A stretch of DNA of 64,000 nucleotides from Haladaptatus sp. R4 (GTDB lineage Archaea; Halobacteriota; Halobacteria; Halobacteriales; Haladaptataceae): the NCBI RefSeq assembly GCF_001625445.1, contig NZ_LWHG01000011.1, forward strand, positions 124,001 through 188,000, read 5' to 3'. The position numbers and the translations under genes are program-made. Shown here piece by piece: positions 8,551-17,590 of the stretch. The notes below the pieces were generated by a model that made no database searches, was not told the origin of the DNA, and saw only the letters and a program-made list of their open reading frames with translations. Every line of letters starts with the position of its first letter. The first letter of the stretch is position 1.

Positions 8551-8936
8551 AAAAAGACCGAAGTGCGAGAACCGAACCGGAGCCAGCGAGTCCTGCTGGC
8601 TTGCTCGCGATGTGCGAAGTGCCTCGCAGTCGCTGGACGGACTGGTTGCCACTGGCAGGATTCGATTCTCCTACGCGATTTTCTCTCACTTGCGGTCGCT
8701 CGCGGATGGTTCTGAAAAACCGTCCGTTCACGAGGTGATGTTCGCAAAAGGTCCAGGTGCGAGAATCGAACCGGAGCCAGCGGTTCCTGCTCGCCTGCTC
8801 ACGGTGTTGCCGTTCGCATCGGCTGCGCGGGCTGCCGCTGGCAGGATTCGATCCTCTTCCAGGACTTTTCTTCGCTTGCCACTTGCTCGTGGCCGGTTTC
8901 GACCGCGAAACCGGGCACTCACGGTTTATCGCTCAG
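8551..8936. repeat. Two tandem ~193-bp units derived from the tRNA-His 3' end
   Basis: Unit B (8746-8936) opens with 27 bases (8746-8772) identical to 8937-8963, which is the 3' flank and T-arm part of tRNA-His. Unit A (8551-8745) opens with a diverged version. Spacing is 195 and 191 bases. Within each unit a long imperfect inverted repeat joins a T-arm-like left end (GAGAATCGAACC in B) to a T-arm-like right end in the other orientation: 8567-8588 with 8649-8671 in A, and 8761-8783 with 8835-8856 in B. The inner arms of B, GCCAGCGG and CCGCTGGC, are exact complements. Open frames across these units are out-of-phase readings of the repeat, not genes. Confidence 0.75.
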
Positions 8937-8941
8937 AAAAG

Positions 8942-9014
8942 GTCCAGGTGCGAGAATCGAACCCGCGTCCCAGCCTCCACAAGGCTGGAGGATAGTCCAC
9001 TACCCCAACCCGGA
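8942..9014 (-). tRNA. tRNA-His (anticodon GTG)
   Basis: The minus strand folds as a full cloverleaf. Acceptor TCCGGGT pairs with ACCTGGA; the anticodon stem CAGCC/GGCTG encloses the loop TTGTGGA with anticodon GTG; the T-arm is GCGGG-TTCGATT-CTCGC. The base before position 1 is G (plus-strand 9015) and the discriminator is C, which together give the G-1:C73 identity pair special to histidine tRNA. CCA is not encoded. No intron is needed. The D-stem is short, with U13 facing U22. Confidence 0.95.
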
Positions 9015-9704: not shown

Positions 9705-10502
9705 CTACTCGTCGTCCTTACCGTCTTTGCCGTGCTTCGGTTTGCAGTCGTCCCAACCGCCGTGACCGTCACCGCCGTGATGCCCGTCACCGCCGTGGTG
9801 ACCGCGCTTTTTCTTCAGGTCCACGTCCAACGAGAGGTCGTACCAGATGCCGATCACCGAATCCCGCGAGACACCGGTGACGTCCCCTTCGAAGCTGACG
9901 TCGAGTTTCGAGGCTGTGCAGACCTGCCCCCTGATTTCGCCGTCCGCGTACTTTTCGGTATGAACGTTCACGTAGACGTTCCCCGCGCGAATTTCGCTGA
10001 TCAGGTCCGCTATCGAGTCCCCTTCGAGCGGTCCGACGAGGTCCGAGGCTCGGATCGATCCCGTCGAGGCTACGTTGTTCAGGATGAGTAACTGCTGTGC
10101 GTCGACATCCTCGCCGATCAACGATGCCACGACCGGCCCGTTTTCACCCTTCTCCCCCAGGTGCAGGTGTGCACCCGTTATCTGCGACGTCGCGTTTATC
10201 GCGAGCAGTGCGAAGTCGAGTCGCTTCTTATCCGGCGTCGATCGGAACGCCGCGACACCTTCCCCGGGGCTCCTGTTTTTCGGCACCTCCTTTTTACCAG
10301 ACATCGTGCTGGTACTGTAGAGTTGCCCTTTAAGGGCGATTTGCGGGTAGTTCTTTCCTTTCGACTTCTTGCCTTTCGAACCGTCTTTATCCATCGACGC
10401 TCCGTTACCGTTCAACATCGCGTTCCCCGAACTGATGCCGGCCAATCCGGTGAGTCCCATGCCAAGCACTTGCATCGTGCGGCGTTTTCGTTGATCAACC
10501 AT
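9705..10502 (-). CDS. Secreted CHRD-domain protein with His/Gly/Asp-rich tail
   Basis: A 265-residue protein. The N terminus has a KRR pair and a hydrophobic stretch (RRTMQVLGMGLTGLAG), like a weak twin-arginine signal. Residues about 58-200 form a CHRD domain: LYSTSTMSGKKEVP, GAHLHLGEKGENGPVVASL, and GNVYVNVHTEKYADGEIRGQV, which is the family signature. CHRD domains occur in extracellular proteins of many phyla and are thought to be binding modules. The C-terminal 40 residues are GHHGGDGHHGGDGHGG-like and could bind metal. The promoter carries the motif at 10538-10556 that is also found in the β-helix and propeller promoters, so co-regulation is likely. The ATG at 10502 is the first in frame. 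Confidence 0.85.
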   Translation of the reverse strand: MVDQRKRRTMQVLGMGLTGLAGISSGNAMLNGNGASMDKDGSKGKKSKGKNYPQIALKGQLYSTSTMSGKKEVPKNRSPGEGVAAFRSTPDKKRLDFALLAINATSQITGAHLHLGEKGENGPVVASLIGEDVDAQQLLILNNVASTGSIRASDLVGPLEGDSIADLISEIRAGNVYVNVHTEKYADGEIRGQVCTASKLDVSFEGDVTGVSRDSVIGIWYDLSLDVDLKKKRGHHGGDGHHGGDGHGGWDDCKPKHGKDGKDDE

Positions 10503-10537
10503 TTGTGATCCAACTCTGCGTTATTCTCGTTTTCTAT

Positions 10538-10556
10538 TTGTTATATGCTGCCTGAA
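10538..10556 (-). promoter_or_regulatory. TTCAGGCA-N4-ATAACAA promoter motif of the CHRD gene
   Basis: Read on the minus strand the site is TTCAGGCA-GCAT-ATAACAA. It sits 35 bases before the CHRD start. The right half overlaps a TATA-like ATATAACAA, so TTCAGGCA lies where an activator or BRE-adjacent repressor would bind. Two more copies with identical fixed bases lie in the divergent promoter at 14354-14405. Confidence 0.6.
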
Positions 10557-10740
10557 TATTGTACTATTCTTCCTGATACTCGAAATACATACCTTGTGGT
10601 CCGTAATACGGAGCCTGACTCTCGTAATGTTTGATTACTGCATTCTATAATATCTAAGAAACCTCCGGAGGGAACTGGGTTTCCAATTCTCCCGTTCCGT
10701 TGGGCGTAGTTTCATCTCGCTCGGATGCTAACATGTGACT

Positions 10741-11802
10741 ATGAGTGATGTATCCGGGAACGCCGACCGGAGACCGTGCGATTTCTGTCGCCTGCCGTGT
10801 CTCGACGAGACGATAACGCTGGCCCACGGCGAGACGACCTACGAATTCTGTTCGGAGACGTGTCGGAACGAGATGGTAGCGAACGACCGCGTATTCACCA
10901 CCTATCACGGATTTCGCCAGATAACCACGGGTATCTCGGCGCTCGACGACCATCTGCCGGAAGGGTTGCCACGCAACTCGTTCATCCTGCTGTCCGGGGA
11001 AGGTGGAACGCGCGACAACGCCATCGGGACCGAACTCGTCTGGCGGACGCTTCGGCGCGGTGAACCGGCAATCGTCGTCAGCTTCACCGAACCGCCGATT
11101 TCGGTCATCGAGCAGTTCCTCTCCTTGGAGTGGAACGTCCTACCGTATCTCGAATCCGGACAGCTACACGTTCTCGACTGCTTCACCTACCGGGTCGGCG
11201 ACCGCGACCGGATGTTCACCCGGATGGACGAGTGGAACCACTTCCTGCACCACGTCACTGCGCCCGTCACGACGACGGTTCGTGACCCGAGCGATACGAG
11301 CGAACTGCAAAACAAACTCGACAACTGTCTCGAATCGCTGTCGATGAGCGATACGGGCATCGTCGCAATCGACTCGCTGACCGAGTTCGGGACGCTCGTT
11401 CAGCCCGTCCAAGCGTACGATTTCGTCAAGGACATTCGCGCGGACGTCTGCAAAGGAAGGTTCGTCACCGTCTTTGCGGGAGCGACGTTCACCGGGGAAG
11501 AGAACGCGTTTCCGCACGACATGAGCTACGTCATCGACGGCCTCGTCGAGTTGCAGTTGAACGGATCGCTCGTCGACGACGTGCTCATCAAACGGATCCG
11601 CATCCGCAAGATGAACGGCGTGTTGACGATTCCTGAGTGGGTCGCCTACGAGTACACGAGCGGAGACGGGTTGATATCGTTCGACCCGATCGAGGAAATG
11701 GAATCGGCCGAGGAAGCCATCGAATCCGACGAAACCATCGAATCCGACGAACAACCGAGTTCGGATCGGAACGCTCGGTCGGAATCAGACGCCGCCGAGT
11801 GA
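10741..11802 (+). CDS. KaiC/RecA-like ATPase homologue with N-terminal zinc (TRASH-like) motif
   Basis: A 353-residue protein from the ATG at 10741 (a GTG at 10735 is also in frame). Residues 13-41 hold a cysteine cluster, CDFCRLPC and FCSETCR, that resembles a TRASH/zinc-ribbon metal site. The KaiC-like fold follows: ITTGISALDDHLPEGLPRNS, then a Walker A position reading LLSGEGGTRDNAIG, without the lysine-threonine needed for normal ATP binding. The Walker B strand GIVAIDSLTEF is kept, as is the C-terminal IRIRKMNG strand. It probably senses or scaffolds rather than hydrolyses ATP (inference). The C terminus is a short E/S/D tail. Similar haloarchaeal proteins are called HTR-like. Convergent with the β-helix gene. 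Confidence 0.75.
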   Translation: MSDVSGNADRRPCDFCRLPCLDETITLAHGETTYEFCSETCRNEMVANDRVFTTYHGFRQITTGISALDDHLPEGLPRNSFILLSGEGGTRDNAIGTELVWRTLRRGEPAIVVSFTEPPISVIEQFLSLEWNVLPYLESGQLHVLDCFTYRVGDRDRMFTRMDEWNHFLHHVTAPVTTTVRDPSDTSELQNKLDNCLESLSMSDTGIVAIDSLTEFGTLVQPVQAYDFVKDIRADVCKGRFVTVFAGATFTGEENAFPHDMSYVIDGLVELQLNGSLVDDVLIKRIRIRKMNGVLTIPEWVAYEYTSGDGLISFDPIEEMESAEEAIESDETIESDEQPSSDRNARSESDAAE

Positions 11803-11871: not shown

Positions 11872-14211
11872 TCACACGGACCCTTCGAAGACGGCGTATC
11901 CGACCGTCTCGGGAACGTGACTCGTTTCCGTATCGGCGCTCTCCTCCTCTTCGATCTTCACCTCGACACTACGTCCGGTGAGGTTTCGATACCGAAGTTC
12001 CGCGGTGTCGCCGCCGTTGAGCGTCTGTATGTCGGCGTAGAACAACGGCGAATCGTACCGATTGCCGAAGGATATCCGTTGCCACTCGTCGGTAATCTCC
12101 TCATCGGTTTGCCGTACTTCGAACACCCGTCCGTCGATTCGCCCGGACCTCCGTTGGAGCGCGATGTACCCGACCGTCTCGCTCACGTGCCCGTCTTGAC
12201 CCTCTTCCTCCTGAAGTCTCACCCCGAACGAGTTGCCGGTGACTTTCGACAGCCGTGAGACGACCGGATCGGAACCGTTGGCCGTCTGTGGCTGTGCAAA
12301 TACGACCGGTGCCGTCCCTCCGAAGAAATCCCCCATCGAAACGGTCGTCTTCGCGTCGGAAACCTCCGCTTGTCCGCCTTTTACCTTGAACGATTTGCCG
12401 TTGTCCAGTTGCAACACCTGTTCGTTCGTCCCGGCCGAAAGCGAATGGAACGTTTCGCTGATATGCGATCCATCGAGGTATTCCCACTCTTCGAGTTTGT
12501 ATTCGAAATTCCCATCCGCCACGTTTCGGAGACGGACGTGCGCCGGGTTCCCGCCGTCGTACGACAGCGGTTTCGCGACGACGACGCCACTCGGTTGTAC
12601 GGCCGAGGTGACCTGTTGCCACTGGTCTACGCTTTCCTGTTTTCCGCTGGTTATCGCTTTCGTCAACAGCGGTACTTCGCTGCCGGGGGTGTACGGTTCC
12701 CCATCGACCGTCCACACCGCGGGTCCACTCGACTCGGTCGAAACGATACCGCCGGTCACGTAGAACGAGTGGATCTTTCCCGCACGGACTGATCCCGTTG
12801 CGACCGACGAATCCCCGGGTCGGCTCGGACCCCCGTCCTCTCCCCAGGACATGGTCATCGTCGAACCTTCGTTGCCTGCGGGAAGGGCGTTCTCCCCGGC
12901 CGTAATCCGATACGTCGTCGGCGAGTCGTTGCCCGTATTGTCGATGCGAACGAGTTGCGCGGATTGCAGCGGAACGGTCCCGAGCGCCGGTGGATCGGGC
13001 AACGGCGGCGTCGTATTCGGTTCGTCGGGATTTCCGTTGACGGTCATCCGGTTGCTGATGTAGGTCGAGTTAGTCTGTGGACCGGACCCACCGAGTACGC
13101 CGGACACCGTTCCCCACTCGTCCGGTGCTTGGCCGATGTAGATCGCGTACTCGCTGTTGTGGTCGTTGCGTACCTGGACGTCATTGAGCTCCAGATATTC
13201 GAGGTTCGCTGGTGTCCCGTCGGACATCTGGTTGTCGTACGTGTAGATGGCGTCGTGGTTCTTCGTCGAATCGTAGCTGATTCGGACGTCGTCCACGACG
13301 ATTCGTCGACACGTGACCTGTCCCGTGATCGGTCCGCCGCAACTTGACGACTGGTAGCGGTGATAGAAATCACTATCCGCGATGGTGAGCGTTCCGTCGT
13401 AACTGTTGATTCCGTCCGCCGAATCCGCGGGAACGTTGGCCTCACAGCTCACACCGCGTTGGAGCGACCCGCCCGACCACGCCGACCGTGGATGTTGTCC
13501 GTCCTTGATGGAGACGCAGTTTCTCACTTCCGTGTTCCCCCCGAGACGGAGACCGTTTTGCGTGTTGCGGACGAAGCAGTTCAGGATTTTGAGTTTTCCT
13601 TCGGGTTTCTTCGCGTAAATCGTGTTCTCTCCCCACAGTTCGAACCAACAACGGTTGAACGTGAGTGCCCCCTTCCCGGATTCGACGAGTATCGCACGCC
13701 GGTTGCTCGCCTCGTCCGCGGCACACGCCCCCTCGTTGAAATAGCAGTCCTGCAGGAGTCCGCGTTTTCCGCTCGCGGAGGATAACCGGAAGTACGTGCG
13801 TGCGTCGCTCGAATCGTTCGATCCGACGTTGGTATCGGTGGCCGCCCGCACTTTTCCACGGGTGATGAGTCGTCTGAGCTCCCAGTCGCCCGAATTGGAG
13901 TTCATGCGAACGAACGGCGGAATCGGCGTATTCCGCATATCGAGTTCGAACCCGTCGAGGACGAACCCGTTCGAGTACACGTCGAACCATCGAACGCTGT
14001 CGCCCGAAGTTCCGGGGACGAGTCGCGCTCCGTTCGGCGCGATGAGTTCGAGGTTGTCGGTTCCCGATTCGACGGTAATTCCCCTGAGCTTGTAGGTTCC
14101 CGACGGAAAAACGATCGTCGTATTGCTGCCGACGAGGTCGTCTAGAATCGGATCGATGGCCGTGTTCCCGTTTTTGTCTGCCCCCTGATCGACGATATTG
14201 TAGGTCGGCAT
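11872..14211 (-). CDS. Right-handed beta-helix surface protein with three C-terminal ETVGY repeats
   Basis: A 779-residue protein from the ATG at 14211, which is preceded by a strong Shine-Dalgarno (GGAGGGGATCTG). The frame is open further upstream to 14418, but that start would lie above the promoter motif. Residues 1-25 (YNIVDQGADKNGNTAIDP) are the usual opening of pectate-lyase-like β-helix proteins. Residues to about 390 carry repeated β-helix rungs (NCFVRNTQNGLRLGGNTEVR). The last 230 residues contain three related units, each with a NGxDPVxxR-like turn and ending HxxET: SHISETFHSL, GHVSETVGYIAL and SHVPETVGYAVF. These repeats occur in exported proteins. No classical signal peptide is seen, so export is uncertain. 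Likely binds or cleaves polysaccharide. Confidence 0.75.
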   Translation of the reverse strand: MPTYNIVDQGADKNGNTAIDPILDDLVGSNTTIVFPSGTYKLRGITVESGTDNLELIAPNGARLVPGTSGDSVRWFDVYSNGFVLDGFELDMRNTPIPPFVRMNSNSGDWELRRLITRGKVRAATDTNVGSNDSSDARTYFRLSSASGKRGLLQDCYFNEGACAADEASNRRAILVESGKGALTFNRCWFELWGENTIYAKKPEGKLKILNCFVRNTQNGLRLGGNTEVRNCVSIKDGQHPRSAWSGGSLQRGVSCEANVPADSADGINSYDGTLTIADSDFYHRYQSSSCGGPITGQVTCRRIVVDDVRISYDSTKNHDAIYTYDNQMSDGTPANLEYLELNDVQVRNDHNSEYAIYIGQAPDEWGTVSGVLGGSGPQTNSTYISNRMTVNGNPDEPNTTPPLPDPPALGTVPLQSAQLVRIDNTGNDSPTTYRITAGENALPAGNEGSTMTMSWGEDGGPSRPGDSSVATGSVRAGKIHSFYVTGGIVSTESSGPAVWTVDGEPYTPGSEVPLLTKAITSGKQESVDQWQQVTSAVQPSGVVVAKPLSYDGGNPAHVRLRNVADGNFEYKLEEWEYLDGSHISETFHSLSAGTNEQVLQLDNGKSFKVKGGQAEVSDAKTTVSMGDFFGGTAPVVFAQPQTANGSDPVVSRLSKVTGNSFGVRLQEEEGQDGHVSETVGYIALQRRSGRIDGRVFEVRQTDEEITDEWQRISFGNRYDSPLFYADIQTLNGGDTAELRYRNLTGRSVEVKIEEEESADTETSHVPETVGYAVFEGSV

Positions 14212-14327
14212 CAGATCCCCTCCCCCGGAACCATTTCGCGGATTGCCCCCAAGACGGTCGGACGTCTGTTCCGATCGATTCGGTCGAGCAGCCGTGCGTC
14301 TTCGTTTCTGATTTCTCCTCTCACCAT
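14211..14327 (-). CDS. Possible 38-residue leader peptide coupled to the β-helix gene
   Basis: A short frame starts at ATG 14327 and ends with TGA at 14213-14211, overlapping the ATG of the β-helix gene as TGATG. The predicted peptide begins MVRGEIRNEDARLLDRIDRN and looks helical and charged. Its ATG lies 26 bases downstream of the left arm of the operator palindrome, close to the spacing seen for the other two genes with this motif, so transcription probably begins just before it. No homologue comes to mind. It may be a real small protein, or a leader that controls the downstream gene. Confidence 0.4.
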   Translation of the reverse strand: MVRGEIRNEDARLLDRIDRNRRPTVLGAIREMVPGEGI

Positions 14328-14353: not shown

Positions 14354-14405
14354 TTGTTATACTCTGCCTGAAGATGGAATATACCGTTCAGGCACCTCAT
14401 AACAA
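14354..14405. promoter_or_regulatory. Palindromic divergent operator (two TTCAGGCA-N4-ATAACAA sites)
   Basis: Left arm 14354-14372 is TTGTTAT-ACTC-TGCCTGAA; right arm 14387-14405 is TTCAGGCA-CCTC-ATAACAA. The fixed 15 bases are exact reverse complements, the four spacer bases differ, and the arms are 14 bases apart. Each arm points to one divergent gene: the left to the leader/β-helix pair, the right to the propeller gene 33 bases away. The same 15 bases occur upstream of the CHRD gene. Conserved fixed bases with a variable N4 gap indicate protein binding. Confidence 0.75.
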
Positions 14406-14438
14406 TTTGTGTGATCATTGAATTAACGTTCGAGACAT

Positions 14439-16114
14439 ATGCCTGGAGAATCCCACACGCGGACGGGAATCGACCGACGAACGATGTTGAAAACGATCGG
14501 TGCTACGGTGGGTGTCGCGGGGTTCGGAGGACACGCCTCCGCCAGGGGCGGTGGTTCCGAAATTCGACCGTACAACTGGACCGGACCTCGCTCCGGACCC
14601 AGTCGAACGGGAACGACCGACGACGACGGTCCGACACCGTACGCCACACTCGACTGGAAGATGGATTTGGACGGAAGTATGTTCCACGTCGAGCCGATCG
14701 TTACCGACGAACTGGTGTATATCGCCGTTACAACGGACAACACGCCCGGAGAGACCGCCGGATACCTCGGCGCATACGACCTCGAAACCGGCAAGCGACG
14801 GTGGAAACGAACCGACATTCCGAGTCCGAAGCCACCCACGACCGATGGCGACAAGGTGTACGTGGCGACGAAGACCTTCGAATCCTCAAAGTCGGGTGAG
14901 GGGGGGATGTACGCGCTCGATGTTGCGTCCGGGGAGACGGTGTGGACGCGGACGGACCACGACGTGTGGTCTCCCCCCATCGTGACCGACGACCGGATAT
15001 TCAGTTCGAACCGACACGGGACGTACGCGTTCGACCCCGACACCGGGAATACCGCCTGGCAAACTGCTGGCGTCTCCGGGTTGTCGAAGGACGTCGGCGA
15101 TGCACTAAGCTACATCGACGGAACCCTTTTCCTGAGCGATGGGAAGGCGTTGGACGCCGCAGACGGGTCGATGAAATGGAGTGTATCTCCGGACGACACG
15201 ACGCTCGGCAACCCGTCGGCAACCGAACAAATGGTCTATTTCTCCCAAACCGACTATCTCACCGGAGAGGACGACAGCGTGGAGATACAAGCCCGGTCGC
15301 CGGACTCCGGACGGTTGGAGTGGAGCTACGAGTCGTCAAAACAGAACCAGTGGAACGGACAACCCGCAATCACCGACGAGCACGTGATATTCGTCGATTC
15401 CACCGAGGATTCCACCCTGAAAGCACTCGACAGGATGACGGGGGAGACGGCGTGGACGACGGACATGGTGGGGGAAACCTTCAGCAACCCGGTCGTGGGC
15501 AACGGAACGGTGTATCTCGGCGGAAACATCGCCGAACTGGGTCTCATACACGCTATCGACGATTCGACCGGCGAGTTACGGTGGACGTATCCGCTCGACA
15601 GCACCGACCTCCAAACGTCGCCCGAAAATCCCCCCGCCGCCGGGGTACCCGTGATTTCGAACGGTAAACTGTACGTCGCGACGTATCCCGCCGGTGCGAC
15701 GCTCGACTACGAGTACACGTACTACTCGAACTTCTTCGTGCTGGGGTCGTCCGACCTGCAACCGGACGGGAGTTCCGGACTGCCGGACGGCAGCGAACCG
15801 GACGGCGGGACGACATCCCCGACACCCCTGACGAGGAAACCGAGTCCCCATCGTTGGATGCGTATATCGAAGTCACGCCGAGTCCCGACTCGACCGACCT
15901 CGACGGTGGCGACGTCCTCCAACTCGATGCGTCCGCTTCGACGGGGAACGAACTTCGGTTCGAGTGGGATATCGACGGGGATGGTGCGTACGAGAAGGGA
16001 GGACGTTCGATTCACGTGTCGCTTCCCTCCTGTGGGTCGCGGTCGATCACGGTTCGCGTCACGGACGGGGACGGTGAGACGGACACGGCGAGCGTTTCGA
16101 TGGCGGCGAACTGA
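14439..16114 (+). CDS. Secreted PQQ-like β-propeller protein with C-terminal PKD domain, frameshifted
   Basis: The N terminus has DRRTMLKTIGATVGVAG, a twin-arginine-type signal. Residues about 65-430 contain repeated PQQ-like β-propeller blades (GAYDLETGKRRWKR, YALDVASGETVWTR, KALDRMTGETAWTT, HAIDDSTGELRWTY). At about 15807-15809 the frame breaks at a GGG run. Reading one frame over from 15809 restores DDIPDTPDEETESP, then a PKD domain (about 15880-16110) ending VRVTDGDGETDTASVSMAAN and the stop at 16114. If uncorrected, the first frame continues as arginine-rich nonsense to 16337. One missing G explains it. PKD and propeller domains both suggest a cell-surface binding role. The promoter is the palindromic operator at 14354-14405. 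Confidence 0.8.
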
Positions 16115-16143: not shown

Positions 16144-16161
16144 TTTTAGGCCAACCTAAAA
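16144..16161. promoter_or_regulatory. Perfect metalloregulator-like palindrome
   Basis: TTTTAGGCCAACCTAAAA is a perfect 7-base inverted repeat around CCAA. It matches the box in front of the ZIP transporter at 15 of 18 bases. A TATA-like CCTTTATC (16171-16178) follows and an ATG lies 25 bases after that. It therefore looks like an operator just upstream of a leaderless promoter. Confidence 0.6.
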
Positions 16162-16199: not shown

Positions 16200-16337
16200 A
16201 TGGTTCGTGATCGTACAGAGCACCGGAGACCGACACAGGGCAATTCCCTCACACGCGGCGAATCGCGCGCTGGCTGTGCCGCCCGTCGTGACCTCTTCTC
16301 CCGTCATGTCAAAGGAGTAACTGGCAGAAATGCTTGA
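16200..16337 (+). CDS. Possible small ORF (45 aa) or short regulatory transcript behind the metal box
   Basis: The ATG at 16200 is 25 bases from the centre of a TATA-like box, the spacing expected for a leaderless haloarchaeal transcript. The frame gives 45 mostly basic residues (MVRDRTEHRRPTQGNSLTRG...) unlike the acidic proteins around it, and I see no family. A two-tier hairpin follows at 16323-16357 (GGCAGA/TCTGCC outside, TGCTTG/CAAGCA inside), overlapping the stop codon. The unit may therefore be a small RNA, with the frame incidental. It shares its frame with the uncorrected propeller reading. Confidence 0.35.
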   Translation: MVRDRTEHRRPTQGNSLTRGESRAGCAARRDLFSRHVKGVTGRNA

Positions 16338-16406: not shown

Positions 16407-17590
16407 GTGCGCGTAGTCGCCAAGTTCGGGGGCACCAGCCTCGGAAGCGGAGACCGCATCAACCGTGCCGCAGACTCAGTCGCAGCAGCCGTCGAAGCAG
16501 GACACGAAATCGCCGTCGTCGCCAGCGCGATGGGCAACACGACCGACGAACTGCTCGACGAAATCCACTTCGACGCGGACGAACCGGACCGCGCGGAAAT
16601 CGTCAGCATGGGCGAGCGCACGAGCGTCAGGATGCTCAAAGCCGCCCTCTCCGCGCGCGGTGTAAACGCCATCTTCCTCGAACCCGGAAGCGAGCAGTGG
16701 CCGGTCATCACCAACACGCGCGGGGAGGTCAACGTCGAGGAGACGAAAGCGCGCGCCACCGAACTCGCGGCGGAGATGGATGGAGTCGTCCCGATCATCA
16801 CGGGCTTCCTCGCGGAGAACGAGGAAGGAGGCGTAACGACGCTCGGACGCGGCGGCAGCGACACGACGGCGTGATGCTCGGCACGTACATGGACGCCGAC
16901 GAAGTCGTCATCGTCACCGACGTGGAAGGCGTCATGACCGGCGACCCGAGCGTCGTGGAAGGCGCGCGGAACGTCGGCGAGATTACGGTGGACGAACTTC
17001 GAAACCTCTCGTTCCGCGGGGCCGAAGTCGTCGCGCCGTCGGCGCTCTCGTACAAGGACGACAACCTCCACGTCCGCGTCGTCCACTACCAGCACGGCGA
17101 CCTGCTGGCTGGCGGAACGAACGTCACCGGCCAGTTCGAGAACCTCATCGACATGCGCGAGTCGCCGCTCGCCTGCATGACCCTGGCGGGGCGTGCGATC
17201 CGAAACCGTCCGGGTATCCTCGCCGACCTCTCCACCGCGCTCGGTACCGGCAACATCAACATCGACGCCGTGGCGAGCGGCATGGACAGCATCACGTTCT
17301 ACGTGGACACCGAGGAAGCCGAACGCGCCGAGAACATCCTCCATCAGGAGGTCATCGACGAGGAATCGCTCTCCAGCGTGACGGTCGACGACCCGATCGC
17401 CGTGATTCGGGTGACGGGCGGCGAACTCCCCAACGAACCGGGAATCATCCACGAACTCGTTAATCCCATCGCGGAAGCGCACATCAACATCCACGACCTC
17501 ATCACCAGCGCGACCAGCGTCGCCCTGTTCGTGGACTGGGACGACCGCGAACGGACGCTGGAAATCCTCCAAAATCACTTCCAGCAGTAG
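16407..17590 (+). CDS. lysC: Aspartate kinase, frameshifted
   Basis: Aspartate kinase phosphorylates aspartate, the first step to lysine, threonine and methionine. The GTG start at 16407 has GAGGTGG just upstream and yields RVVAKFGGTSLGSGDR, the classic kinase opening. The catalytic domain runs through MGERTSVRML and GFLAENEEGGVTTLGRGGSDTTA, then meets TGA at 16872. Inserting one G (GCG-GTG-ATG instead of GCGTGATG) restores DTTAVMLGTYMDADEVVIVTDVEG in the next frame. The remainder to 17590 contains two ACT domains (LAGRAIRNRPGILADLSTAL and GELPNEPGIIHELVNPIAEA), expected for feedback control. Total length then fits the family, so one missing base is the best reading. Confidence 0.9.

Follow-up and report, generated by a model that had tools for sequence, protein, structure and literature searches.

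A two-part sequence, TTCAGG-N6-ATAACAA-W-N14-WW in its full form, was found at three promoters of the window, the whole stretch of 64,000 nucleotides from Haladaptatus sp. R4 that was analysed. On the evidence of its sequence and position, the repeated motif is a real two-part promoter element of a lineage-specific class. This class is probably specific to Haladaptataceae, and in it a putative family-restricted DNA-binding factor would sit on TTCAGG and would help TFB/TBP to load onto a poor TATA box, ATAACAA, as the TBP contact. In the window, promoters of this class would fire the CHRD gene, the PQQ gene and the mini-ORF/beta-helix unit. An earlier note on this DNA had described 15 fixed bases occurring three times within 4 kb, and all three copies were found to be exact at 10538-10556, 14354-14372 and 14387-14405. 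The features of the three promoters were as follows.

9705 to 10502, minus strand: CHRD-domain protein gene (PF07452, E 4e-22; Tat-like N-terminus RKRRTMQVLG)
10521 to 10522, minus strand: -10 WW (AA) of the CHRD promoter, placed by the WW enrichment
10538 to 10556, minus strand: CHRD promoter element, exact match (TTCAGG 10556-10551, ATAACAA 10544-10538)
10559 to 10577, minus strand: degenerate copy of the CHRD element in tandem, ATCAGGAAGAATAGTACAA, lying 21 bp upstream of it
11872 to 14211, minus strand: beta-helix CDS (MPTYNIVDQGAD...), 779 aa, start conserved in paralogs
14211 to 14327, minus strand: leader mini-ORF of 38 codons, beginning 26 nt after ATAACAA
14337 to 14338, minus strand: -10 WW (TT) of the mini-ORF/beta-helix promoter, placed by the WW enrichment
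14354 to 14372, minus strand: divergent element of the mini-ORF/beta-helix unit, exact match (TTCAGG 14372-14367, ATAACAA 14360-14354)
14373 to 14386, no strand: 14-bp spacer between the divergent elements, its length kept and its sequence not in a six-genome comparison
14387 to 14405, plus strand: PQQ beta-propeller promoter element, exact match (TTCAGG 14387-14392, N6, ATAACAA 14399-14405)
14421 to 14422, plus strand: -10 WW (AA) of the PQQ promoter, placed by the WW enrichment 16-17 nt after ATAACAA
14439 to 16337, plus strand: PQQ beta-propeller gene (PF13360; Tat-type N-terminus DRRTMLKTIG)

With up to three mismatches allowed, the 64-kb window would be expected to contain 0.24 matches, and a count of three was not attained in any of 100 shuffles. 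The genome of the strain was found to contain 7 copies at up to one mismatch against 1 for the reversed pattern, which served as the control count throughout. At three mismatches 58 matches were found against 48 in the control, so weak sites in this genome could not be called by pattern alone. The N6 gap was rigid, as 46 of the 50 matches found in the genus with the gap left free from 4 to 16 nt had exactly N6 (control, 2 in all). The N6 nucleotides ahead of ATAACAA leaned towards C and did not contain CGAAA. The earlier proposal of one DNA signal shared by the three promoters of the window was supported.

The copies at 14354-14372 and 14387-14405 had been described as a palindrome. They do form an opposed pair, but the pair consisted of two asymmetric sites 14 bp apart, TTCAGG and ATAACAA not being mutual inverted repeats and the single site having no dyad symmetry; judged from the sequence, the palindrome is two back-to-back promoters. 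Six Haladaptatus genomes were found to have a divergent pair, exactly 33 bp from start to start, between a beta-helix gene and a PQQ-type gene; the spacing and orientation of the PQQ element were the same in 5 Haladaptatus genomes besides that of the strain. Elsewhere most motif sites were single, without a partner. The CHRD promoter of Haladaptatus genome G008 (DYF46) was found to contain TTCAGGAAGCATATAACAA, and in that genome, too, a degenerate copy was present 21 bp upstream; such a copy was seen at CHRD alone and may be due either to a small duplication or to cooperative binding. As the degenerate copies repeat the whole site, one protein may read both halves, which counts against a separate factor on TTCAGG.

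Several observations were made on the genes around these promoters. In the list of open reading frames the PKD-like end (15854-16114) was in a different frame from the beginning of the PQQ gene, and a second frameshift-like break lay near 16860-16880, where an aspartokinase-like gene continued in another frame; the apparent frameshifts (15780-15870 and 16860-16880) may be assembly errors or real mutations. A palindrome, TTTTAGG-CCAA-CCTAAAA, was present at 16144-16161 upstream of the ATG at 16201, and presumably resembles the boxes of DtxR/SirR-type metal regulators. The tRNA-His at 8941-9014 on the minus strand was followed by two more copies of its 3′ end at a spacing of about 190 bp within longer repeats (8552-9014), which look as if left by repeated integration or duplication.

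The distance from the end of ATAACAA to the first ATG was found to peak at 26 nt after clustering of near-identical sites, and the copies were oriented toward the gene or RNA. In 65 sequence clusters a W nucleotide followed ATAACAA directly in 97%, and W nucleotides were found at +16 and +17 in 86% and 83%, respectively. Both together (WW at +16/+17) were present in 71%; other neighbouring pairs averaged 25% and reached 42% at most. These downstream bases, including the W at +1, had played no part in site selection, and both the +1 W and the WW were present at all three window sites. From the start codons, the RNA 5′ ends and the WW we infer a transcription start about 26-27 nt after ATAACAA, so that the WW falls at -11/-10. 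As the WW fits the haloarchaeal -10 element, ATAACAA, at roughly -33 to -27, would stand in the TATA position, and TTCAGG would span roughly -45 to -40, immediately upstream of the usual TFB contact. The mode of 26 nt and the -10 WW thus agreed with the earlier placing of the ATAACAA half at the TATA position. ATAACAA does not appear to be the ordinary TATA box of the family, being absent between -70 and -1 in all 203 ordinary ATG open reading frames of the same loci, whose starts were assigned mechanically and are crude. In three sets of orthologous promoters, those of the glycosyltransferase-like gene of Halorussus, of the solute-binding gene of Haladaptatus and of a chromosomal tRNA-like RNA, both boxes were conserved amid mostly diverged flanks.

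The site had been called an operator, and a repressor bound to TTCAGG-N4-6-ATAACAA that blocks TBP was therefore considered. The 3′ half at the TATA position and the degenerate tandem copies at CHRD, 21 bp or two helical turns apart and thus suited to cooperative binding, agree with it. A repressor would need neither a strict orientation nor a strict distance to the start, and no alternative TATA box was conserved in the footprinted promoters, so that the operator would also have to be the core promoter. A repressor site is accordingly a rather improbable reading, and an asymmetric, strictly oriented site, fixed relative to the start codon, is better described as a promoter or activator element.

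The targets in the genome of the strain included CHRD, the mini-ORF/beta-helix unit, PQQ, a solute-binding lipoprotein-type gene (its ortholog being SBP_bac_5), a secreted protein of unknown family, a small winged-helix protein and a tRNA-like RNA. Six of the seven copies were upstream of a gene or mini-ORF and faced it, and the seventh preceded the gene of the tRNA-like RNA, so that all seven faced a gene, mini-ORF or RNA. Other Haladaptatus genomes were found to contain further Tat-type proteins and a multicopper oxidase among the targets, and the Halorussus targets included several membrane proteins besides a DUF354 glycosyltransferase-like gene. With export assessed by visual inspection for Tat or Sec motifs, and with orthology classes likewise assigned by inspection, the targets appear to be mostly, but not exclusively, exported or envelope proteins. 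The regulon of secreted proteins that had been proposed was thus right in its richness in exported and envelope proteins and too narrow in leaving out the tRNA-like RNAs, the Halorussus glycosyltransferase-type genes and the winged-helix protein. Nor did all window targets look exported, since the beta-helix protein (MPTYNIV...), for which no Pfam family was matched over its 779 aa, had no obvious signal peptide by eye.

All copies had also been placed 26-35 bases before an ATG. For the beta-helix copy the ATG at 26 nt (14327) was that of the mini-ORF, and the ATG of the beta-helix gene (14211) was 142 nt away. Among 27 beta-helix genes that were identified from their protein sequences, independently of the motif, and had a recognisable start, 12 contained the motif at up to one mismatch and 2 more a degenerate form. 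In 13 of these 14 motif-bearing genes a mini-ORF of 37-66 codons ended at the beta-helix ATG, the overlap in the window being TGATG (TGA of the mini-ORF with ATG of the gene). The mini-ORFs (window 14211-14327; L211-L229) were poorly conserved in sequence and began close to the expected start, mostly exactly 26 nt after ATAACAA. Similar short open reading frames, overlapping by ATGA, were found at the Halorussus motif genes L109, L110, L112, L120 and L128. The overlaps of mini-ORF and gene suggest translational coupling.

The relatives of the window proteins were from Haladaptatus, at 73-82% identity, of the family Haladaptataceae, and the family sample comprised Haladaptatus, the sister genus g2 and the third genus Halorussus. 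Each of the 28 Haladaptataceae genomes was found to contain at least one copy at up to one mismatch (90 matches against 7 in the control); for nine Haladaptatus genomes the counts were 61 and 5. In 380 Halobacteria genomes outside the family 19 matches were found against about 28 in the control, and the motif outside the family is at chance level. The scan of this and related genomes that the earlier note had proposed thus gave seven copies in the genome of the strain, a copy in every family genome and chance level elsewhere, and the regulon was found to extend past the window. No paper on the motif or on regulation in Haladaptatus or Halorussus was found in the open-access literature. The sites might also have no regulatory role and represent a recombination site or a repeated element that has been copied; in favour of this, many of them are located on plasmids, and one of the RNA families is multicopy. 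The flanks were unrelated between gene classes, orthologous promoters kept the boxes only while their flanks diverged, and the position relative to the starts was fixed, which leaves mobile or duplicated DNA as a highly improbable explanation.

The motif was also found at two kinds of tRNA-like RNA. The first was multicopy in Haladaptatus and mostly on plasmids (L167-L174, L179-L185, L187-L191 and L194-L196; for example L083:1620-1921 and L007:1677-1766), and its covariance model gave 47 matches in the family. These loci contained the promoter motif followed by a leader of about 150-180 nt and the tRNA-like fold. All 23 listed plasmid-type loci, chosen by this model and not by the motif, contained ATAACAA 132-184 nt upstream, the copy at L189 being the one from the genome scan; TTCAGG was exact in 10 and one base off in 3, being more decayed in the others, and its decay beside a kept ATAACAA indicates that TTCAGG may not be needed everywhere. 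The fold contained a long variable arm, a standard T arm and a discriminator G, with a hairpin of variable length in place of the anti-codon loop, and would suit seryl-tRNA synthetase. Among 13 matching plasmid records, 12 had no annotation at the locus. The second kind was an 85-nt chromosomal RNA (Rfam tRNA, 44 bits) without a consistent anti-codon, found at the following positions, with relatives at L199-L205.

L010, 1388 to 1472, minus strand: chromosomal tRNA-like RNA
L044, 1547 to 1633: chromosomal tRNA-like RNA
L084, 1525 to 1609: chromosomal tRNA-like RNA
L099, 1440 to 1524, minus strand: chromosomal tRNA-like RNA

The motif ended 28 nt upstream of this RNA in most family genomes where the RNA was found. 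A few haloarchaeal families besides this one had related RNAs, of which some had a box resembling ATAACRA and lacked TTCAGG. As the motif was close to start codons, a signal in the mRNA leader acting on translation or RNA stability was weighed. A translation signal is hard to reconcile with targets that are non-coding RNAs, the motif lying 28 nt or about 150-180 nt ahead of the tRNA-like genes. The mode of 26 nt and the -10 WW are also in keeping with a start downstream of the motif, and action at the RNA level can hardly be credited.

A positive mechanism is likely, as ATAACAA does not contain the usual haloarchaeal TATA/BRE sequence (TTWT, CGAAA). The factor would most likely be an activator and less likely a special TFB/TBP pair. 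No regulator was found among the candidates weighed, which were the KaiC-like ATPase, the winged-helix protein and the TFB paralogs. The KaiC-like ATPase (10741-11802), which had been named as a candidate partner, was set aside, having no motif upstream; its relatives were also present in Haloglomus, Salinarchaeum and Natronosalvus, whose loci were motif-free, and none of the 16 relatives found, close ones only, was from Halorussus, which has the motif. The winged-helix protein (L005, L031) was rejected as a general regulator, its close orthologs being found in only three of the Haladaptatus genomes searched; its fold family is common elsewhere, and it appears to be a target and not evidently a regulator.

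As the main rival of the activator reading, a special TFB or TBP paralog might read the element directly, in the manner of an alternative sigma factor and without a separate activator. The element is asymmetric and at core-promoter distance, and the TFB tree contained a nearly identical secondary-replicon clade of Haladaptatus and g2, present in all 10 genomes examined (support 96/92), and a separate secondary-replicon clade of Halorussus. This tree, whose resolution was weak and for which a subset of TFBs was sampled, contained no single clade that the whole family shares to the exclusion of others, and TTCAGG is 6 bp upstream of ATAACAA, beyond the usual BRE contact; direct reading by a paralog is thus on the unlikely side. 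In a broader form, an alternative initiation system with its own core element, TTCAGG-N6-ATAACAAW, would descend from the Haladaptataceae ancestor and co-express surface proteins and multicopy plasmid tRNA-like RNAs without an anti-codon; such a lineage-specific system, which in archaea would correspond to an alternative sigma factor, is an equally tentative proposal. The secondary-replicon TFB paralog (L241, L248, L252-L259) was near-identical across all Haladaptatus genomes and g2, and in G000, G006 and G008 it was located 13-17 kb from a motif-driven secreted-protein gene.

If the preferred reading, a factor on TTCAGG aiding TFB/TBP, is true, the motif is a direct handle on a regulator or initiation factor datable to one family, and it links exported proteins with envelope genes of the glycosyltransferase type and with tRNA-like RNAs that carry no annotation. 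Few archaeal regulons are defined by a motif present in every genome of a family yet at chance level outside it, and the case bears on whether the many haloarchaeal TFB/TBP paralogs read different core promoters.

The haloarchaeal core promoter contains the BRE CGAAA, the TATA box TTWT and WW at -10 (PMC4983044). The present element was similar in its box at the TATA position, in the -10 WW and in a transcript that probably begins at the start codon or a little ahead of it (leaderless or with a short leader), and differed in the presence of ATAACAA for TTWT, in the absence of CGAAA, in the extra fixed TTCAGG further upstream and in its restriction to a few promoters per genome and to one family. 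Palindromic operators of dimeric HTH regulators, bacterial or archaeal, likewise combine conserved fixed bases with a free spacer, but the single site lacks their dyad symmetry and is fixed in orientation and start distance. The GvpE UAS of the gas-vesicle promoters PA/PD in Halobacterium and Haloferax is 20 nt long, immediately upstream of BRE, and contains two 8-nt blocks with 4 free nucleotides between them (PMC4390858). The two-block layout is shared by the motif, written here as TTCAGGCA-N4-ATAACAAW, as are the short upstream element at a fixed, close distance to the core promoter and the divergent pair with elements meeting centrally (the 33-bp pair of six genomes), which is a resemblance of layout only. 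Unlike the GvpE UAS, which is wholly upstream of BRE and TATA, the motif has its 3′ block at the TATA position and serves unrelated genes. A fixed, oriented and asymmetric core-promoter element whose TATA box departs from the usual consensus is best read as a site of activator-assisted TFB/TBP loading with a GvpE-like logic.
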